DNA from: Alphaproteobacteria bacterium
GTDB taxonomy: Bacteria; Pseudomonadota; Alphaproteobacteria; UBA7985; JAUIBT01
Direction: 5' to 3'
DNA length: 33,073 nucleotides
Assembly: GCA_030428255.1 (NCBI GenBank)
Contig: JAUIBT010000033.1
Span: 1 to 33,073 of the forward strand
The translations under genes and the position numbers were made by a program. This document shows, in pieces, positions 20,422-30,797 of the stretch. Below the pieces are notes generated by a model. It worked only from the letters and a program-made list of their open reading frames with translations. It was not told where the DNA came from and made no database searches. The first letter of the stretch is position 1; the number at the start of each line of letters is the position of its first letter.

Positions 20422-20444
20422 ACAGTCACTAGATGGAAGACCGC

Positions 20445-20822
20445 ATGTCTTGGACCGATGAACGCATCGATGAACTCAAGCAATTGTGGGGCGAAGGCCT
20501 CAGCGCCCAGGACATTGGCAAGAAGCTTGGCGTGACCAAGAATGCGGTCATTGGCAAGGCGCACCGTTTGGGTCTGCCGCCGCGCCCTTCGCCCATACGC
20601 CGCGCCCGTCCGGCACAGGCGACCAAGACCCGTCGCAAGACCAGCAATGCCAGCATTGGTTTGCGCGCCACAGGCCACACCTGCGTTTGGCCCATCGGCG
20701 ATCCGGCTGAAGATGATTTTCGCTTTTGCGACGCGCCCTCGATGCCGCACAAGCCCTACTGCCAAAAACACTACGATATGGCTTATATCCAGCCGCGTCC
20801 GCGCTCGTCTCGCTCTTCTTAA
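20445..20822 (+). CDS. gcrA: GcrA cell cycle regulator
   Basis: Sigma70-associated transcription factor that, with CcrM DNA methylation at GANTC sites, controls cell-cycle genes in Alphaproteobacteria. The canonical start MSWTDERIDELKQLWGEGLS leads into a helix-turn-helix (AQDIGKKLGVTKNAVIGKAH). A basic linker rich in Arg and Pro follows, then the C-terminal sigma-binding domain with TCVWPIGDP, FRFCDAPS and KPYCQKHYDMAY. At 125 residues it is shorter than the Caulobacter protein (173), mostly through a reduced linker. An ATG four codons upstream is in frame, but GGAAGA before the ATG at 20445 and the family N-terminus favour the latter. Confidence 0.96.
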   Translation: MSWTDERIDELKQLWGEGLSAQDIGKKLGVTKNAVIGKAHRLGLPPRPSPIRRARPAQATKTRRKTSNASIGLRATGHTCVWPIGDPAEDDFRFCDAPSMPHKPYCQKHYDMAYIQPRPRSSRSS

Positions 20823-22007: not shown

Positions 22008-22131
22008 CGACTTCTTTGTGAGCTGATTTTCTATGCTTCAGACCCTGATCTGTTCCGCGAATGCGCACCGGTTTGCCAAGGCGACTCCACCTTCAGGCCC
22101 CGCAGCCCGCGTCCAGGCCCAGCATCTTGCC

Positions 22132-23118
22132 ATGCCGCTGGCCCTGTGCCGGGCTTTCGCTGGCCTGTTGGCCCTGGCTCTGCTGGTACTGACGCCCGCA
22201 GCCGCGCAGCAGACCCAATCGGGCTTGCGCGGGCGCTTGATCATCGGCGCTGGCCCGGTCAATGGTCCAAACTACGTGGTGGGCGGCGCGATTTGTTCGA
22301 TCATCAACCAGGACAGCGCACGCCACGGCTTTGAGTGTTGGGTCATGCCGAACAACGGCATTCGTGACAATATCCTGGGCATGCAGAATGGGCGTATTTC
22401 GGCTTTCTTGATTCAGTCGGACTGGCAATCCTACATCTACAACGGTGACATTCCTGGGCTGCGTCTGACGACCTTGCGTCACCTCTTCTCTTTGCAGTCG
22501 CGCGCCATCATGCTGGTCGCGCGGGCCGGAGCCAATATCCAAGACATGACCGATCTGAAGGATACCCGCATTAGCCTGGGACCAGAGGACAGCGGGCAGC
22601 GGGTTTTGTCAGAGGCGATTTTGCGGGTCGCTGGGTATGCGCAATCCTCCTTTGCCGGCACTTTTGGTTTGCGTGGGCAAGAGATCTATAAGGCGCTGTG
22701 CGTGGACGAAAGTATTGATGCCGCCTTCTTGCCGGCCAATGTGCCGTCTGCGGCGATCCAAGAGCTTATTTTGGGTTGCGGGGCGAGTTTGGTTCCGATT
22801 GCAGGTCCAACCTTTGATCGCTTAATACGCGATAATCCCTATCTATCTGAAGTAGTCATCCCCGCAACGACCTATGAAGGTTTAGAGAACGACATTAACA
22901 CCTTAGCGTTCTCTTCGACGATTGTCTCAACCGATAGTCTACCTGACGAGGCCGCTTACACGATTACTGAGGCTGTATTTGACAACCTAGACGCGTTCCG
23001 TGAGTTGCATCCTTTATTGGGACGTCTGGATCCCGATAAGATGGCGGGAGTTGGAGCAACTGCCCCGCGTCATGTTGGTGCTGAACGCTATTTCGATCAG
23101 GCCGGCATTACCCGTTAA
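22132..23118 (+). CDS. TAXI-family TRAP transporter solute-binding protein
   Basis: Periplasmic substrate-binding protein of the TAXI class. From the ATG at 22132 the signal peptide is MPLALCRAFAGLLALALLVL, cut after PAAA. The mature part shows the family features LIIGAGPVNGPNYVVGGAIC, the surface loop AFLIQSDWQSYIY, LFSLQSRAIMLVAR, LKDTRISLGPEDSGQR and a C-terminal GAERYFDQAGI. An ATG at 22033 would add 33 residues that mask the signal; neither start has a good ribosome site. No TRAP membrane (DctQM-type) gene is adjacent, so the partner lies elsewhere or the protein acts alone. From about 22800 codon use changes to AT-rich codons such as TTA, CTA, ATA and GTA. Confidence 0.88.
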   Translation: MPLALCRAFAGLLALALLVLTPAAAQQTQSGLRGRLIIGAGPVNGPNYVVGGAICSIINQDSARHGFECWVMPNNGIRDNILGMQNGRISAFLIQSDWQSYIYNGDIPGLRLTTLRHLFSLQSRAIMLVARAGANIQDMTDLKDTRISLGPEDSGQRVLSEAILRVAGYAQSSFAGTFGLRGQEIYKALCVDESIDAAFLPANVPSAAIQELILGCGASLVPIAGPTFDRLIRDNPYLSEVVIPATTYEGLENDINTLAFSSTIVSTDSLPDEAAYTITEAVFDNLDAFRELHPLLGRLDPDKMAGVGATAPRHVGAERYFDQAGITR

Positions 23119-23199: not shown

Positions 23200-24348
23200 A
23201 TGAAAAAAACTTGGATTGTGAGCCTGGCATGTGTGTCTAGCTTCGCGCTTGCAGGGTGCCAAGGCACCATGGGCGAAAAGTTCGGCGCCTTCAAAGACGG
23301 CTTGAAAGGCGAGAGCGCGGAAGCGGCTCCGCAAACCGCACAGGCTGCACCGCAGACCTCGACGTATCAGGGCGCTTACCCTGGAACTTACCCAGGCACC
23401 TATCAGGCTGCTCCAAACGCCGTGCCGCTGACCGCTGCACTGGCTGTTGAGCAGAGCGGTAACGCCTATGCACCGGGCTATGGCACGGTTGTTCCGCAGG
23501 CCATGCAAGCACCCCAAGGTGTCGCTGCCTATCCGTATCCCGTAGCACCCGGCCAACAGCAGCCGCGTTTTGCGCGTCAAGCTGGCGGTGTAAGCGCAGC
23601 GCCGCAAGCGGGCTTGCCCGCAAGTGCAGCGGTGGCTGGCCTCCAGGCGAACCAGATGCAGGCGATCCCACAGCAGATGGCACCTGGTGCTCATCAGCCG
23701 ATTCAAACTTCGGCGCTGCAAACCATTGATATGCCCGCAGGCGGTTTGCCAGCGGCTCCAACTGCGGTGGCTGAGTTGCCCATCCCCGGCAGCATTCCTT
23801 CCATCCCCATGCCGGCCGGTCGCGAGCTGAGCCTACCCGAATTCGCTCAGGCACAGTTGGCTGCCCTGAAAGGCTTCCCCTACGCCGACCCGCGCCAGCG
23901 CAGCACCATTGCATCAGCGATGCGTGGCCAGCGTTTGCCCAAGTTGATGCGCTTCATTCCTTCGGACCTGCAGGCTAACGTTTTGCGTGACTTCGGTTGG
24001 GACGCTGCAAATCCGTCGGATGGCTTCAAGGACGAGATGCTGATCGGTGCGCAAATCGGTACCCCAGTGGTCTCACCGGTCAACGGCACCATTTCCAAGA
24101 TTACCTTTGCTGATGATAAGTCGAGCATCTCGGTCCGCTCTGGCGGCCTGGAGTTCCAGTTCAGCAACCTGGAAGTTGGCGGCCACCTGCGCGTTGGCCA
24201 AGCGATCAGCAGCGATGTCATTTTGGGCACCGTGTCTGAGAGCGGCCAGTTCAGTCACGCGATCCACTTCGTACCGGCGAACCAACTGTCTGCGGCCAAT
24301 GCTGCGAATGCGATCCATCCCTTCTACGTCGCGGCCTTTATGCTCTAA
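23200..24348 (+). CDS. lipoprotein with a degenerate M23 (LytM) domain
   Basis: A 382-residue lipoprotein with lipobox ALAGC (Cys20). Residues about 40-230 are low-complexity, rich in Ala, Gln, Pro and Tyr (YQGAYPGTYPGTYQAAP), and probably an extended spacer. Residues about 275-360 resemble an M23/LytM fold: IGTPVVSPVNGTISKITF, LRVGQAISSDVILGTVSESG and SHAIHFVP. The zinc-binding HxxxD motif before IGTPV is missing (it reads KDEMLIGAQ), and the HxH motif is reduced to A-I-H. It is therefore probably not a peptidase but an amidase-activator or binding protein, as known for EnvC/NlpD-type LytM proteins. AGGGGAG lies 6 nt before the ATG. The next gene encodes an intact M23 lipoprotein. Confidence 0.72.
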   Translation: MKKTWIVSLACVSSFALAGCQGTMGEKFGAFKDGLKGESAEAAPQTAQAAPQTSTYQGAYPGTYPGTYQAAPNAVPLTAALAVEQSGNAYAPGYGTVVPQAMQAPQGVAAYPYPVAPGQQQPRFARQAGGVSAAPQAGLPASAAVAGLQANQMQAIPQQMAPGAHQPIQTSALQTIDMPAGGLPAAPTAVAELPIPGSIPSIPMPAGRELSLPEFAQAQLAALKGFPYADPRQRSTIASAMRGQRLPKLMRFIPSDLQANVLRDFGWDAANPSDGFKDEMLIGAQIGTPVVSPVNGTISKITFADDKSSISVRSGGLEFQFSNLEVGGHLRVGQAISSDVILGTVSESGQFSHAIHFVPANQLSAANAANAIHPFYVAAFML

Positions 24349-24740
24349 GGCATGGGCTCGGCGCGCAGGCGCTTTGCTTGCTCGGAATAGGGCAGGCTTA
24401 CAGCTCAATACATGAGGTCGGTCGGGCGTGGAACGAAGCCAGTCGTCGTCAAGAAACACTGAACCAATTCGTCCGTTTGTCTTATTATCGCTGTGTTTGG
24501 GGGCTAACCCTGGACACAGCGTTTTTTTTGCCTGGCTTGATATGGAGACCGCAGGAAGCGGCCCGTTGGGCAAAGCGCGTCTGTTTGCACGGTGTCTTGG
24601 CGGTTGCGTCGCCAAGGGTTCTCGCGATAAGACGCAGAAAATGCACGATTTCTTATGACCGAAGACAGTATTTTAGTGGCCGTTTGCTTGGAACACGAGC
24701 CGAGCGGTTGAAGTGATATTTCTATCGGACCTTCGCCTTT
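24349..24740. other. 392-bp intergenic region with two hairpins
   Basis: No protein gene is supported here. It contains a strong rho-independent terminator (24489-24529) lying 141 bp past the preceding stop. A perfect hairpin CTTGGCG-GTTGCGT-CGCCAAG (24596-24616) sits in the leader of the following M23 gene. The space between the stop and the terminator is long enough for a 3' UTR-derived or independent small RNA, but no promoter is clear. Confidence 0.5.
24489..24529 (+). terminator. strong rho-independent terminator
   Basis: CGCTGTGT (24489-24496) pairs perfectly with ACACAGCG (24514-24521). GGG/CCC within the 17-nt loop could add pairing, and the stem is followed directly by eight T residues. 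This is the clearest intrinsic terminator in the window and ends transcription from the degenerate M23 lipoprotein gene or from a small RNA in between. Confidence 0.88.
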
Positions 24741-25544
24741 ATGCGTTGTTTTGTATTTGCATTGATTCTTTTGCCGCTGGCCGCCTTGGTCGCCGGATGC
24801 AGCCAAGACCCCCAACTCGCCGAAGTGCGCAGCTACAGCCTGCTCAAAGGTGCGACACCGGGCAATCCCTATGCACAGAGCGCTTACCGCCAACACCTTG
24901 GTGCGGGCGACGGAGGCCAGCAAGATCCGCTTGGCGACCTGATTGCCAATTCCAGTGCCTCGCTGGTCCCATTACCGGATTTTGCCGCTTACAGCGCTCA
25001 GCGCGACCGCATCATGACCGCTATGCGCCGCATGGACAAACAATTCGATGTCCGCAAGCGGCCTCGGCGCACGCCAAAGGAATGGGTCAAGCGCCCCTGG
25101 GACCACAGCCTGCCCTTCCTGCTGGCGGACCAAAAAGCCGACTACAGCTCGGACTATGGTTGGCGGTCCTTGTGGGGTCGCAAGGATTTCCACGGCGGCA
25201 TTGATATCATGGCCAAGAAGGGAACACCCATCTTTGCGGTCAGCGATGGCATTCTGGAATACGCCGAATCCGCGGGCCGCAACGGCGGCTTGGTGTTGCG
25301 CGGGCAGGGTCGCGATCAGGGCTACCACTTCACCTATTGGCACATTCGCCCATCGGCCAAGCTGCGCCAGGGCCAAGTGGTGCGTAAGGGTCAGTTGGTC
25401 GGCCACATTGCCAATTGGGGTGCGAATTCACACCTGCACTACGCGGTGCATGCCACCGAGGGCAAGAGCTATAAGGCGCGCTCCGACAGTGCCTCCTTGC
25501 ACCCGCTCCTCTATCACCGGGCCAAGGCCAGTACGCGGCGCTGA
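24741..25544 (+). CDS. M23 peptidase lipoprotein
   Basis: A 267-residue lipoprotein with lipobox LVAGC (Cys20) and a complete M23/LytM zinc peptidase domain at residues about 135-245. The metal and catalytic residues are intact: HGGID (His151, Asp155), YWHI (His201) and HLHYAVH (His231, His233), around GTPIFAVSDG and LRQGQVVRKGQLVGHI. Such enzymes cut peptide cross-links in peptidoglycan at the periplasmic face of the outer membrane. Residues 100-125 are basic (RKRPRRTPKEW). The ribosome site is weak. It follows a lipoprotein gene with a decayed M23 domain, separated by a terminator, and precedes an ABC exporter by 72 bp. Confidence 0.9.
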   Translation: MRCFVFALILLPLAALVAGCSQDPQLAEVRSYSLLKGATPGNPYAQSAYRQHLGAGDGGQQDPLGDLIANSSASLVPLPDFAAYSAQRDRIMTAMRRMDKQFDVRKRPRRTPKEWVKRPWDHSLPFLLADQKADYSSDYGWRSLWGRKDFHGGIDIMAKKGTPIFAVSDGILEYAESAGRNGGLVLRGQGRDQGYHFTYWHIRPSAKLRQGQVVRKGQLVGHIANWGANSHLHYAVHATEGKSYKARSDSASLHPLLYHRAKASTRR

Positions 25545-27574: not shown

Positions 27575-29443
27575 CTAAACTCGATACTGGCGACAGAAGG
27601 AATCCAGGCTCAGTAGGGACCAAATCAGCAGGCGCTTGTTGCCGTTGCCCTCAAAGTGGAGCTGCAAACGCTTGTCGAACAGAGGCTTGTCCAGAAAGCC
27701 CCAAATCGGCGACTGGTTGCCCAAGCGCTCTTGCACCCAGCCCGCCAACTCGCCCTTGAACCAGCTCGCGTCAGGGGCGGAAAAGCCCTGCTTGCGGCGC
27801 TCGAGGATTTCTTTGGGAACCAGGCCCTCGGTGGCCTTGCGCAAGATCAGCTTGGCGTTGTTCATCTCGCGATACTCATAGTGGGTCTCTGAGGACTCGC
27901 TGTTTTTGATGCTGTCCAAGAAGCCCAGCTTGAGGCGCAGCGGCAGCCGCATGGCAAAGTCCACCAGGTCGTTGTCCAAGAAGGGTACCCGCGATTCCAG
28001 CGAATGCGCCATAGAGATCTTGTCCTCTACGTAGAGCAAGCCGCGCAAGAAGGTTTTGGCCTCGAAGGTCAGCGCTGCATTCACAAAGTCTTCCCGCGCG
28101 GTGCGACTGCGGTCGAAGCCGTCGAAATAACCCGAAAAGACCGCCATGGGGTCGAAGATTTCGGTCTGATTGGCCACCGGACGCATGACATCGCGCAGGT
28201 CGGTGTTGGGCAGCAGGCGCTTCCAATAGGTGAGGTACTTGGTCAGGAAATCGTCGTAGTTCCGGCTCTTCATCACTTCCAGGTAGCGCCAGGAGTAGCC
28301 GGCAAAGATTTCGTCCCCCCCGGTGCCGCACAGCACGACCTTGTTGAACTTTGAGGCCAACTTGGCCGCGTACCAGTTGGGGTAGGACTGGCCGACGCGC
28401 GGCTCCTCAACGTGCCACACGAGTTGGTCGATACAGCGCGGAATGTCGGCTGGCTTGACCACTACCTCATAATGCTCGGTTCCAAAGGCGCGCGCCATGA
28501 CTTCGGCGGCGCGGCGCTCGTCAAACTGTTGCTCATAGTCCTGCACGTCTTGCAGATCAAAGCCGCAGGTGAAGCTGCGCAGGTTGGGGGTGAGCTGGGC
28601 GGCCATGGCGGTCAGATTGCCCGAATCGATGCCGCCGGACAGGTAAGCCGATACATCCACGTCCGACACCATTTGGCGCTTAACCGCTTGGCTGAGCAGG
28701 CGCTTGACCTCCTTGTAATATTCCTCGTCGCTGGCCCCGCTTTCTTCCTGCTCAAAGCGGAAGTCCCAGAAGGTTTTCGGCTCCAGGCGTAGATCGCAAC
28801 CCTGAGACAGATCCAGCGTTGCGACAGAGGCGGGCGGGAACTCGATCACGCCTTCAAGCAAGGTCTGGTCGGAAAAGAAATTCTGAAAGCTCAAGTATTC
28901 CTGCACGCCCAAGAGGTTGAGCTTGGAGGGAAACTCGGGGTGGCTCAAAAAGGCTTTGGCCTCAGACGCAAACAGCAGGACCGATGGGCCGCGATAGATG
29001 TAGAGCGGTTTGATGCCGTAGCGGTCGCGCGCCAGGGTTAGGCGCTTTTCGCGGCGGTCATAGAGGGCGAAAGCAAACATCCCGTTCAGGCGCTCTACGC
29101 AGTCGCGACCCCACTCCTGGTAGGCGTGCAGCAGCACCTCGGTGTCAGAGCTGGAAACAAAGCTGTGGCCCTTGTCTTCCAGCTCGCGGCGGATATCTTT
29201 AAAGTTATAGATTTCGCCATTATAAACAATGGCATAGCGTCCGTCGCCCGCATACATGGGCTGGTCGCCGCCATGGCTCAAGTCGATGATCGATAAGCGG
29301 CGATGGCCCAGGCCGACGCCTTCCTCGACAAAGTGGCCCTCGCCGTCGGGCCCTCGGTGGGCGATTGCATCGGTCGACGCTTTCAACAGCTCAGGATCGA
29401 CCGGCTTTCCAGTCAGGTTGACAATACCGGTAATACCGCACAT
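27575..29443 (-). CDS. asnB: asparagine synthetase (glutamine-hydrolysing)
   Basis: Converts aspartate to asparagine with glutamine and ATP. The 622 residues have the N-terminal nucleophile glutaminase (Cys2 in MCGITGIV, HRRLSIIDLS, VYNGEIYNF, SSDTEVLLHAY) and a C-terminal synthetase domain with the pyrophosphate loop YLSGGIDSG and CGTGGDEIFAGYSW. The length and the inserted segments match the subgroup often found in surface-polysaccharide loci, whose true role may be to amidate a sugar acid or peptide rather than to supply asparagine. AGAGG lies 7 nt before the ATG. It is divergent from a glycosyltransferase gene, which supports that reading. Confidence 0.92.
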   Translation of the reverse strand: MCGITGIVNLTGKPVDPELLKASTDAIAHRGPDGEGHFVEEGVGLGHRRLSIIDLSHGGDQPMYAGDGRYAIVYNGEIYNFKDIRRELEDKGHSFVSSSDTEVLLHAYQEWGRDCVERLNGMFAFALYDRREKRLTLARDRYGIKPLYIYRGPSVLLFASEAKAFLSHPEFPSKLNLLGVQEYLSFQNFFSDQTLLEGVIEFPPASVATLDLSQGCDLRLEPKTFWDFRFEQEESGASDEEYYKEVKRLLSQAVKRQMVSDVDVSAYLSGGIDSGNLTAMAAQLTPNLRSFTCGFDLQDVQDYEQQFDERRAAEVMARAFGTEHYEVVVKPADIPRCIDQLVWHVEEPRVGQSYPNWYAAKLASKFNKVVLCGTGGDEIFAGYSWRYLEVMKSRNYDDFLTKYLTYWKRLLPNTDLRDVMRPVANQTEIFDPMAVFSGYFDGFDRSRTAREDFVNAALTFEAKTFLRGLLYVEDKISMAHSLESRVPFLDNDLVDFAMRLPLRLKLGFLDSIKNSESSETHYEYREMNNAKLILRKATEGLVPKEILERRKQGFSAPDASWFKGELAGWVQERLGNQSPIWGFLDKPLFDKRLQLHFEGNGNKRLLIWSLLSLDSFCRQYRV

Positions 29444-29490
29444 CGCGGACCTCTTTCGTCATGCAAGGACAGAGCGCGGGCTTGAGTTCG

Positions 29491-29503
29491 CCCCTTAAAG
29501 GGG
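29491..29503. promoter_or_regulatory. 13-bp palindrome between asnB and the glycosyltransferase gene
   Basis: CCCCTTAAAGGGG is a perfect inverted repeat with 6-bp arms and one central base, lying 47 bp upstream of the asnB start in a 226-bp divergent spacer. GGGCT and AGCCC flank it at a distance as a second pair. It may be an operator shared by the two divergent genes; no regulator is nearby. Confidence 0.3.
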
Positions 29504-29669
29504 TGATCATCGCGAGCCCCATGCATTTTTCTAGCGACTGGCCCCAGCAATACAAGCGCTAAAGCAAACTAGCTGCATCGCTTGGGCGTTCATGCCCATC
29601 GCCTTGCTTGCCAAGCCAGCTCATCTCGCCTAGGCAGAAGCCCTGCCAAAAGACGGACCGCGAGCGCCC

Positions 29670-30797
29670 ATGCACATTCTGCACTACACCTCTGCCCACC
29701 CTTGGGACGACATCCGCATCTTGCATAAGATGTGCGTGGAGGCGGTGCGCCAGGGCCATGAGGTCAGCTTGGTGGCGGTTGACCCCGAGGCGCAAGAGGA
29801 CCGGCGATTTGACTTCAAGGGCGTTGCTGTGCACTTGCTAGCCCGCCGCGCAGGGCCCGGACGCTTACAACGCGCGACCAAGGTCGCCTGGCGCGTCACC
29901 CGCTATGCAGTGGCGTTGAAGCCCGATATCTTGCAGTTTCATGACCCTGAGCTGATCCCTCACGCCCTGCTGGCGGTGCCGCGCGGGCGACCGCTGATAT
30001 TTGATGCACACGAGGATTTCGTCGCCCAGCTTGAGGGCAAGGCTTGGGTGCGGGCCGGGCTGAAAAAGCGCCTGCTGCGTGCGGCCATGGCCAGCATGCG
30101 CGCGCTGATTGCTTGGCGGGCCAGCCATATTCTGGCGGCTACCGATGGCGTGCGTGCTGCCTATCCTGTGGCCAAAAGCAGCGTGCTGCGCAATCTGCCC
30201 ATCTTGGCCGAGTTCGATAGCGACGCGCGCCTGCCCTTGGATCAACGCGGGGCTGAGGCCTGCTATGTCGGTGCAATCTCCAAGGCGCGTGGGATTGTTG
30301 AGCTGATCGAGGCCCTGGCTCTGAGCCCGGCGACCGAGCTATTGCACCTGGCGGGGCGCTTTGAGACCCCCGCACTGGAGGCCGAATTGCGCGCCATGCC
30401 GGGCTGGGCCAAGGTGCGCTATCACGGGCTGGTGGGCCGCGCGCAGATCGTCGAGATCTTGGGCCGCTCGCGGGCCGGGTTGGTCACTTTGCATGCCACG
30501 CCCAACCACCTGCATTCGATTCCGATCAAGATGCTGGAGTATCTCTGCGCGGGCATCCCCTCCATTGCCTCGAACTTCGAGTATTGGCACAGCTTTGTCG
30601 CACAGGGGCGCACGGCCTTGTTTGTTGATCCCCTGGATCCGCAAGCGATCGCGCAGGCCCTGGATCAGGCTATGGCGCAAGCTGCGCACTTCGAAGCTGC
30701 TATGACGCCCGACACACGCCGGCGATTTGCCTGGGAGGAAGAGGCCAAGACCTTGGAGCAGGTCTATGTGGCCTGTCTGGCCCCGCAATCCGTCTAG
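29670..30797 (+). CDS. glycosyltransferase family 4-like protein
   Basis: A 375-residue GT-B-fold glycosyltransferase. The N-terminal half has MHILHYTSAHPWDDIRILHK with the nucleotide-independent Gly/His-type loop of family 4, then DILQFHDPELIPHAL and RPLIFDAHEDF. The C-terminal donor-binding half has YVGAISKARGIVELIEAL, VRYHGLVGRAQIVEILGRSRAG and the acidic motif region IPIKMLEYLCAGIPSIAS. It would transfer a sugar from a nucleotide donor to a lipid-linked or surface glycan in the cytoplasm. Donor and acceptor are unknown. It stands alone, divergent from asnB, suggesting a small surface-glycan locus. The ribosome site is weak. Confidence 0.87.
   Translation: MHILHYTSAHPWDDIRILHKMCVEAVRQGHEVSLVAVDPEAQEDRRFDFKGVAVHLLARRAGPGRLQRATKVAWRVTRYAVALKPDILQFHDPELIPHALLAVPRGRPLIFDAHEDFVAQLEGKAWVRAGLKKRLLRAAMASMRALIAWRASHILAATDGVRAAYPVAKSSVLRNLPILAEFDSDARLPLDQRGAEACYVGAISKARGIVELIEALALSPATELLHLAGRFETPALEAELRAMPGWAKVRYHGLVGRAQIVEILGRSRAGLVTLHATPNHLHSIPIKMLEYLCAGIPSIASNFEYWHSFVAQGRTALFVDPLDPQAIAQALDQAMAQAAHFEAAMTPDTRRRFAWEEEAKTLEQVYVACLAPQSV

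Follow-up and report, generated by a model that had tools for sequence, protein, structure and literature searches.

A conserved, predicted pseudo-LytM lipoprotein encoded next to an intact M23 paralog in an order of uncultured Alphaproteobacteria

Two genes for lipoproteins of the M23 (LytM) type lie in tandem on the stretch of DNA analyzed here (33,073 nucleotides, hereafter the window), which is part of a 3.5 Mb draft genome whose relatives, uncultured Alphaproteobacteria, are represented by metagenome-assembled genomes. The second protein, p2, has an intact active site and the first, p1, has lost most of its own; the C-terminal domain of p1 models as a LytM fold, its gene is conserved and under purifying selection, and the locus is syntenic within the order. 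We tentatively propose, at somewhat less than an even chance, that p1 is a conserved LytM pseudoenzyme that brings a peptidoglycan endopeptidase into position or activates it, with its neighbor and paralog p2 as the likeliest client. The choice of p2 is favored because the tandem is conserved and the two proteins come from a common subfamily, and a regulator/hydrolase pair, as put forward earlier from the bare letters of the locus (hereafter the sequence-only reading), is plausible. In the proposed mechanism p1 would be lipid-anchored, probably in the outer membrane, and its long Ala/Pro/Gln linker, probably disordered to judge from its composition, would let the dead LytM domain reach the peptidoglycan; p1 would then contact p2 physically and, by analogy with degenerate LytM proteins, activate or position the endopeptidase, and might contribute to cell separation or cell shape.

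For the comparisons the order was divided into three families: f1, the family of the window, with three genus members (the genus mates of the window being L071 and L072), f2 with six genomes and f3 with two. The gene of p1 (382 aa) occupies positions 23200..24348 and that of p2 (267 aa) positions 24741..25544, both on the plus strand. Both proteins start with a signal peptide followed by a lipobox with Cys20, read by eye from the translations: L-A-G-C in p1 (23248..23259, +), identical in L071 and L072, and V-A-G-C in p2 (24789..24800, +). In E. coli the residue after the lipobox Cys decides outer-membrane sorting (the Lol +2 rule), and the +2 residues, Gln in p1 and Ser in p2, suggest by that rule that both proteins would be sorted to the outer membrane. 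A match of p1 to the XAC1346 secretion chaperone (NCBIfam, E 0.00033, 21.2 of 120 bits) was rejected, as it covers residues 1-52, the signal-peptide/lipobox region. The low-complexity linker of p1 comprises residues 43-206 (23326..23817, +), of which 94 of 164 (57%) are Ala, Gln, Pro or Tyr and five are charged. The sequence-only reading had described tandem reading frames with Cys20 lipoboxes and M23-like C-terminal domains, which agrees with what was found (p2 by Pfam, p1 by hhalign and phmmer), and an Ala/Gln/Pro/Tyr linker, which is apt for Ala (38), Pro (26) and Gln (22) and less so for Tyr (only 8).

The assignment of p2 is straightforward. It matches the Pfam Peptidase_M23 family (PF01551) at 6.2e-16 and 58.8 bits, above the 28.7-bit gathering cut-off, and its best relative in a sequence search of the PDB has an E value of 6.2e-8. 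Its HxxxD/H/HxH set is complete, and the five residues of the set, which we take, after LytM, to be three zinc ligands and two catalytic His, are invariant across the 14 rows of the A1 alignment: H151 and D155 in HGGID (25191..25205, +), H201 in WH (25338..25343, +), and H231 and H233 in HLH (25431..25439, +). The claim that p2 keeps all of its zinc ligands is thereby confirmed. Similarly to the M23 endopeptidases Pgp3, MepM and ShyA/C, p2 has the full HxxxD/H/HxH set and exceeds the PF01551 cut-off; unlike them, it stays under all NCBIfam cut-offs (best 46.9 of 500 bits), and its close relatives, most of them with an insert after HxH, are found only in the order.

The relationship of p1 to M23 is firm when sequence comparison is carried through members of the family. 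On its own p1 reaches 0.0075 and 16.9 bits on PF01551, under the cut-off, as do its orthologs (21.7 bits in G001 and 24.6 bits in G002); it matched no M23 model of NCBIfam, and a PDB sequence search with p1 returned a single unrelated match (E 1.6) and no M23 structure. Profile-profile alignment of the p1 orthologs with the p2 family by hhalign gave 98.4% probability and an E value of 5.6e-15 over 168 columns, the homology beginning ahead of the LytM domain. The nearest relatives of p1 beyond its genus are the first copies of the f3 tandems (phmmer E 1.4e-13 and 1.4e-11), which clear the M23 cut-off themselves (39 and 32.8 bits).

The degenerate LytM domain of p1 spans residues 253-382 (23956..24345, +), and its active site was mapped in p2 numbering on a family alignment of 20 rows. 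KDEML (24028..24042, +) stands in the place of HxxxD, with Lys277 for H151 and Leu281 for D155 (Val in both genus mates), and Asn323 (24166..24168, +) in the place of the catalytic H201. Opposite HLHYAVH of p2, p1 has H-A-I-H (24256..24267, +), three residues shorter, so that one His of HxH is kept and one is gone, which one depending on the register; under either register four of the five active-site residues are lost and one is left, and the missing residues are restored in none of the three genus members. From these residues the p1 domain is judged to be catalytically dead. The sequence-only reading had noted the loss of HxxxD and of one His of HxH, which the alignment bears out; the loss at H201 had escaped it.

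AlphaFold2 gave no usable model of full-length p1 on its three orthologs alone (pLDDT 30). A model of residues 207-382, built on 38 rows that included M23 relatives, reached a pLDDT of 79.9 and a pTM of 0.78, with averages per ten residues of 90-95 over model residues 71-150; given the M23 rows in its alignment, the model supports the fold and is not independent proof of it. In a Foldseek search the two best matches were LytM chains of DipM (best E 5.2e-6, TM 0.54 on the query), and lysostaphin, LytM and three EnvC entries were also found. VIA-align placed Csd3 first (Z 15.5), followed by DipM (15.0), EnvC (13.6-14.0) and the Csd1/Csd2 entries (11.8-12.7), with SpoIIQ also present (13.6). The C-terminal domain of p1 hence models as a LytM fold, as the earlier proposal supposed.

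The pairing of an active with a degenerate M23 protein is a principle already known from Helicobacter pylori. As described in PMC5053510, Csd1 and Csd2 are both LytM proteins, of which Csd1 binds zinc and Csd2 has incomplete ligands and no metal; they form a heterodimer via helical domains (PMC5053510) within a shape-determining hydrolase complex (PMC5053510; PMC12468929). The sequence-only reading had set its pair apart because the partner is itself an M23 enzyme, and this distinction does not hold as a new one. Like Csd1 and Csd2, p1 and p2 are paralogous LytM proteins, one with a full set of zinc ligands and one degenerate; unlike them, they are lipoproteins with Cys20 lipoboxes and belong to a different lineage. 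The residues lost differ as well, being the first His of each motif in Csd2 and four of five in p1, and so does the neighborhood, as none of the 17 window proteins covered by the Pfam scan is a bactofilin. Csd1 and Csd2 dimerize by a helical part that includes three helices after the LytM domain. The known Csd1-Csd2 interface seems unavailable to the present pair, because the p1 model lacks these helices, with one short helix at its end, and p2, going by its length alone, lacks them as well, stopping 12 residues past the conserved Pro255. If p1 does control p2, the two would form another M23-M23 enzyme/pseudoenzyme pair besides Csd1-Csd2, on a different scaffold. Among the matches listed in an open-access literature search, none dealt with a tandem M23 pair of this kind in Alphaproteobacteria.

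A search with p1 (E up to 0.001) over 116 genomes, its own included, found relatives in 10, all of them inside the order (10 of its 11 genomes), and in none of the 105 genomes outside it; no relative was found in the order member G009, which is 63% complete. Beyond the genus these matches represent M23 copies in general and not p1 orthologs specifically. The p2-family scan, done with one genome per species and possibly leaving out records of the window's own genome, yielded 44 loci, 13 from the order and 31 M23 proteins from other phyla. The alignments place p1 and p2 in a single M23 subfamily that was seen in this order alone, and most of its copies carry an insert after the HxH strand that ends in NAI(H/D)P (by eye); the f3 second copies and the f2 copies also carry C-terminal extensions.

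The M23 slot has the same upstream neighbor in all of f1, f2 and f3, a gene for a TAXI-type TRAP solute-binding protein (22033..23118, + in the window; by Pfam, NCBIfam and gene order). The 17 window proteins covered by the Pfam scan include no TRAP permease. Behind this gene an altered M23 copy is followed by an intact one in all three f1 genomes and in both f3 genomes. No tandem occurs in the six f2 genomes; five of them have a single intact M23 copy in the slot, the sixth being the incomplete G009, and three have a second intact copy elsewhere. The pair, the conservation of which had been named as a check, is thus retained in f1 and f3 and absent from f2, an outcome that leaves the pairing idea standing.

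In the f3 first copies HxxxD and the two catalytic His are retained and HxE replaces HxH (two of two), four of the five residues being intact. Because only this one active-site residue is altered in f3, a graded loss of the active site at a single locus is suggested, with one residue altered in f3 and four of five lost in f1. A separate question is whether the f3 first copy might still be an enzyme with Glu as a zinc ligand in HxE, in which case the f3 tandem would consist of two enzymes and the pseudoenzyme would be limited to f1. The four retained residues and the scores above the M23 cut-off would fit this, and a carboxylate at that place is not unique: the Pgp3-like M23 protein of the window's genome (L069, 8953-10026, minus strand, G000:C22; 97 bits on PF01551) has HLDW (by eye), that is, Asp at the expected third zinc ligand, which bears on the presumed inactivity of HxE. 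Against this, His is replaced by Glu at the third ligand in none of the other 15 aligned subfamily copies with HxH, and between the two f3 genomes the first copies have diverged faster (54% identity) than the second ones (72%). We regard an active f3 first copy as somewhat unlikely.

A stepwise history, in which an M23 lipoprotein arising by tandem duplication at one constant locus became a dedicated pseudoenzyme regulator of its sister with an interface unlike that of Csd1-Csd2, is speculative and, as a complete account, rather unlikely. Its proposed stages would be a single intact enzyme (f2), a first copy with one altered ligand (f3), and a first copy that has a long linker and is left with one of the five residues (f1). 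A tree of 20 M23 domains did not settle the deep order of the copies, as the branches are long, that of p1 measuring 5.86 changes per column. The AU test rejected neither the grouping of the first copies in one clade (p 0.498) nor that of p1 with p2 of f1 (p 0.134). One and two tandem origins are indistinguishable from sequence, and synteny alone favors one. Were p1 to control p2, the relatives would apparently show intermediate stages between enzyme and regulator at one syntenic locus, and both the order of the active-site losses and the onset of regulation would become testable.

In the window 392 bp separate p1 from p2, and this gap contains an intrinsic-terminator-like hairpin with a stem of 14 pairs and eight T after it (24489..24529, +; -24.2 kcal/mol, z -4.2). 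Counterparts with 13 pairs and seven T each lie at the same position in L071 and L072, so that it is present in all three genus members; in L071 one pair is changed on both sides, the other changes being one-sided (by eye). The hairpin stands out by its fold and conserved place and not by the number of terminator-like sites, which at 1, 6 and 3 per region is not above chance (shuffled means 3.3-3.4). Rfam had no match over 24300-24800, and a second clear copy of the hairpin region was not found in the genome. Sigma-70 scans gave no site in the window's region, one in L071 (+) and one in L072 (-), as many as in shuffled sequences. Since a terminator-like hairpin lies between the genes in all three genus members, p1 and p2 are probably not one simple transcript in this genus, which is still compatible with a common function. 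In both f3 genomes the stop codon of the first gene ends 4 bp ahead of the second gene, an operon-like arrangement. The approximately 36 nt directly 5' of the hairpin (24453-24488) are also strongly conserved in the genus, with a promoter-like TTAACG/TATTAT match in L071, and may represent a small RNA or a 3' end with a regulatory function.

The main alternative is that p1 is a factor of the NlpD/DipM/EnvC kind for an amidase or lytic transglycosylase encoded elsewhere, its adjacency to p2 being only a trace of the tandem duplication; we consider this possible, though on balance doubtful. Degenerate LytM proteins are described as mostly regulating hydrolases (PMC9662197; PMC10336132), and EnvC, NlpD, DipM and LdpF provide the other model for such factors (PMC10336132; PMC9662197; PMC8416486). 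At an E threshold of 0.1 seven M23 loci were found in the window's genome. Besides p1 and p2 these encode a third p2-subfamily member, which has no lipobox, a ShyC/MepM-like protein, a second MepM-like protein, the Pgp3-like protein and a DipM/NlpD-like protein; none of those compared reaches its NCBIfam cut-off. The DipM/NlpD-like protein combines a degenerate LytM domain with two repeats resembling LysM (by eye), its best model being celldiv_DipM (202.9 bits, below its cut-off of 740). Together with p1 it brings the degenerate LytM proteins of the genome to at least two, and because this DipM-like protein and one Amidase_3 protein are also encoded, p1 may serve other hydrolases of the genome, candidate clients being the Amidase_3 enzyme and the other M23 enzymes. 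The DipM-like gene and that of the third, intact p2-subfamily paralog are convergent and about 1.7 kb apart (L066, 6328-7551, +, and 9215-10357, -; G000:C49), and in G002 their counterparts are on separate contigs.

The DipM and EnvC structures among the Foldseek matches, the Amidase_3 protein and the hairpin between p1 and p2 all speak for a client elsewhere. So does the EnvC model, which in ten genomes of the order (G009 left out) matched the LytM part in every case, only from position 236 onward of 385 and never above its cut-off, so that a second regulator slot may be open; the model is weak as a test, as the Caulobacter control was also below the cut-off and only one of 14 controls passes, and an LdpF-type protein may yet be present. 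The FtsX extracellular-domain model had no match in the genome, but it missed the Caulobacter control too. On the other side, the genome already has a DipM/NlpD-like protein, p1 has no LysM match in Pfam (E up to 1), a difference from the NlpD/DipM type, and the p1-p2 type of adjacency is retained across two families. Moreover, a p1 query finds members of the p2 family at E 1e-3 and not the DipM-like reading frame, which was in the set searched. NlpD is a lipoprotein, and p1 is like it in being lipid-anchored; like EnvC, NlpD, ActS, DipM and LdpF, p1 retains under selection a LytM domain that appears inactive by its residues, and its sequence, unlike theirs, places it in the p2 subfamily. Should p1 serve an amidase instead of p2, it would add a degenerate LytM factor of lipoprotein type, from bacteria without a full-length match to the EnvC model used.

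It is improbable that p1 is a non-regulatory lipoprotein, such as a tether between outer membrane and cell wall or a structural partner acting through the old LytM surface. The lipobox, the long linker of low charge, the modeled LytM fold and the strong conservation would suit such a function, and the structural matches include SpoIIQ, a degenerate protein of LytM fold that has a structural partner. The regulatory role that PMC9662197 and PMC10336132 assign to most degenerate LytM proteins argues against it, and binding by p1 is hypothetical.

A client in p2, as preferred here, agrees with the conservation of both genes, and p1 is the more constrained of the two within the genus. For the three pairs among the three genus members, a Nei-Gojobori script gave dN/dS values of 0.07, 0.09 and 0.05 for p1 (0.110/1.52, 0.112/1.29 and 0.052/1.06) versus 0.19, 0.20 and 0.08 for p2 (0.266/1.38, 0.298/1.46 and 0.102/1.31), ratios that are rough because dS is close to saturation. 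For the LytM domains alone, dN was 0.081, 0.070 and 0.033 in p1 (residues 253-382) versus 0.167, 0.176 and 0.048 in p2 (residues 100-267). The divergence between the f3 copies described above is the opposite of that in f1. That p1 is a pseudogene or a drifting relic of the tandem duplication, as its lost catalytic residues and very long tree branch might indicate, deserves next to no credence, since the frame is open in all three genus members, dN/dS is below 0.1 and conservation exceeds that of p2; the pseudogene reading is rejected on account of this purifying selection, and the term decayed, used of p1 earlier, is right for the active site and wrong for the gene. Among the neighboring genes, GcrA and MFS have dN values at or below that of p1, and for TolC, ABC and the TAXI protein the values of the two wider pairs fall between those of p1 and p2. 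Downstream, the region 27578-30797 encodes an asparagine-synthase-like amidotransferase (above the asn_synth_AEB cut-off) and a glycosyltransferase, together with weaker matches to XrtA/PEP-CTERM exopolysaccharide models under their cut-offs. In f1 the TAXI/M23 locus has the gene for the GcrA cell-cycle regulator (20433-20819 in the window) on its upstream side, and in f3 this gene is also found near the locus (L077 and L078).
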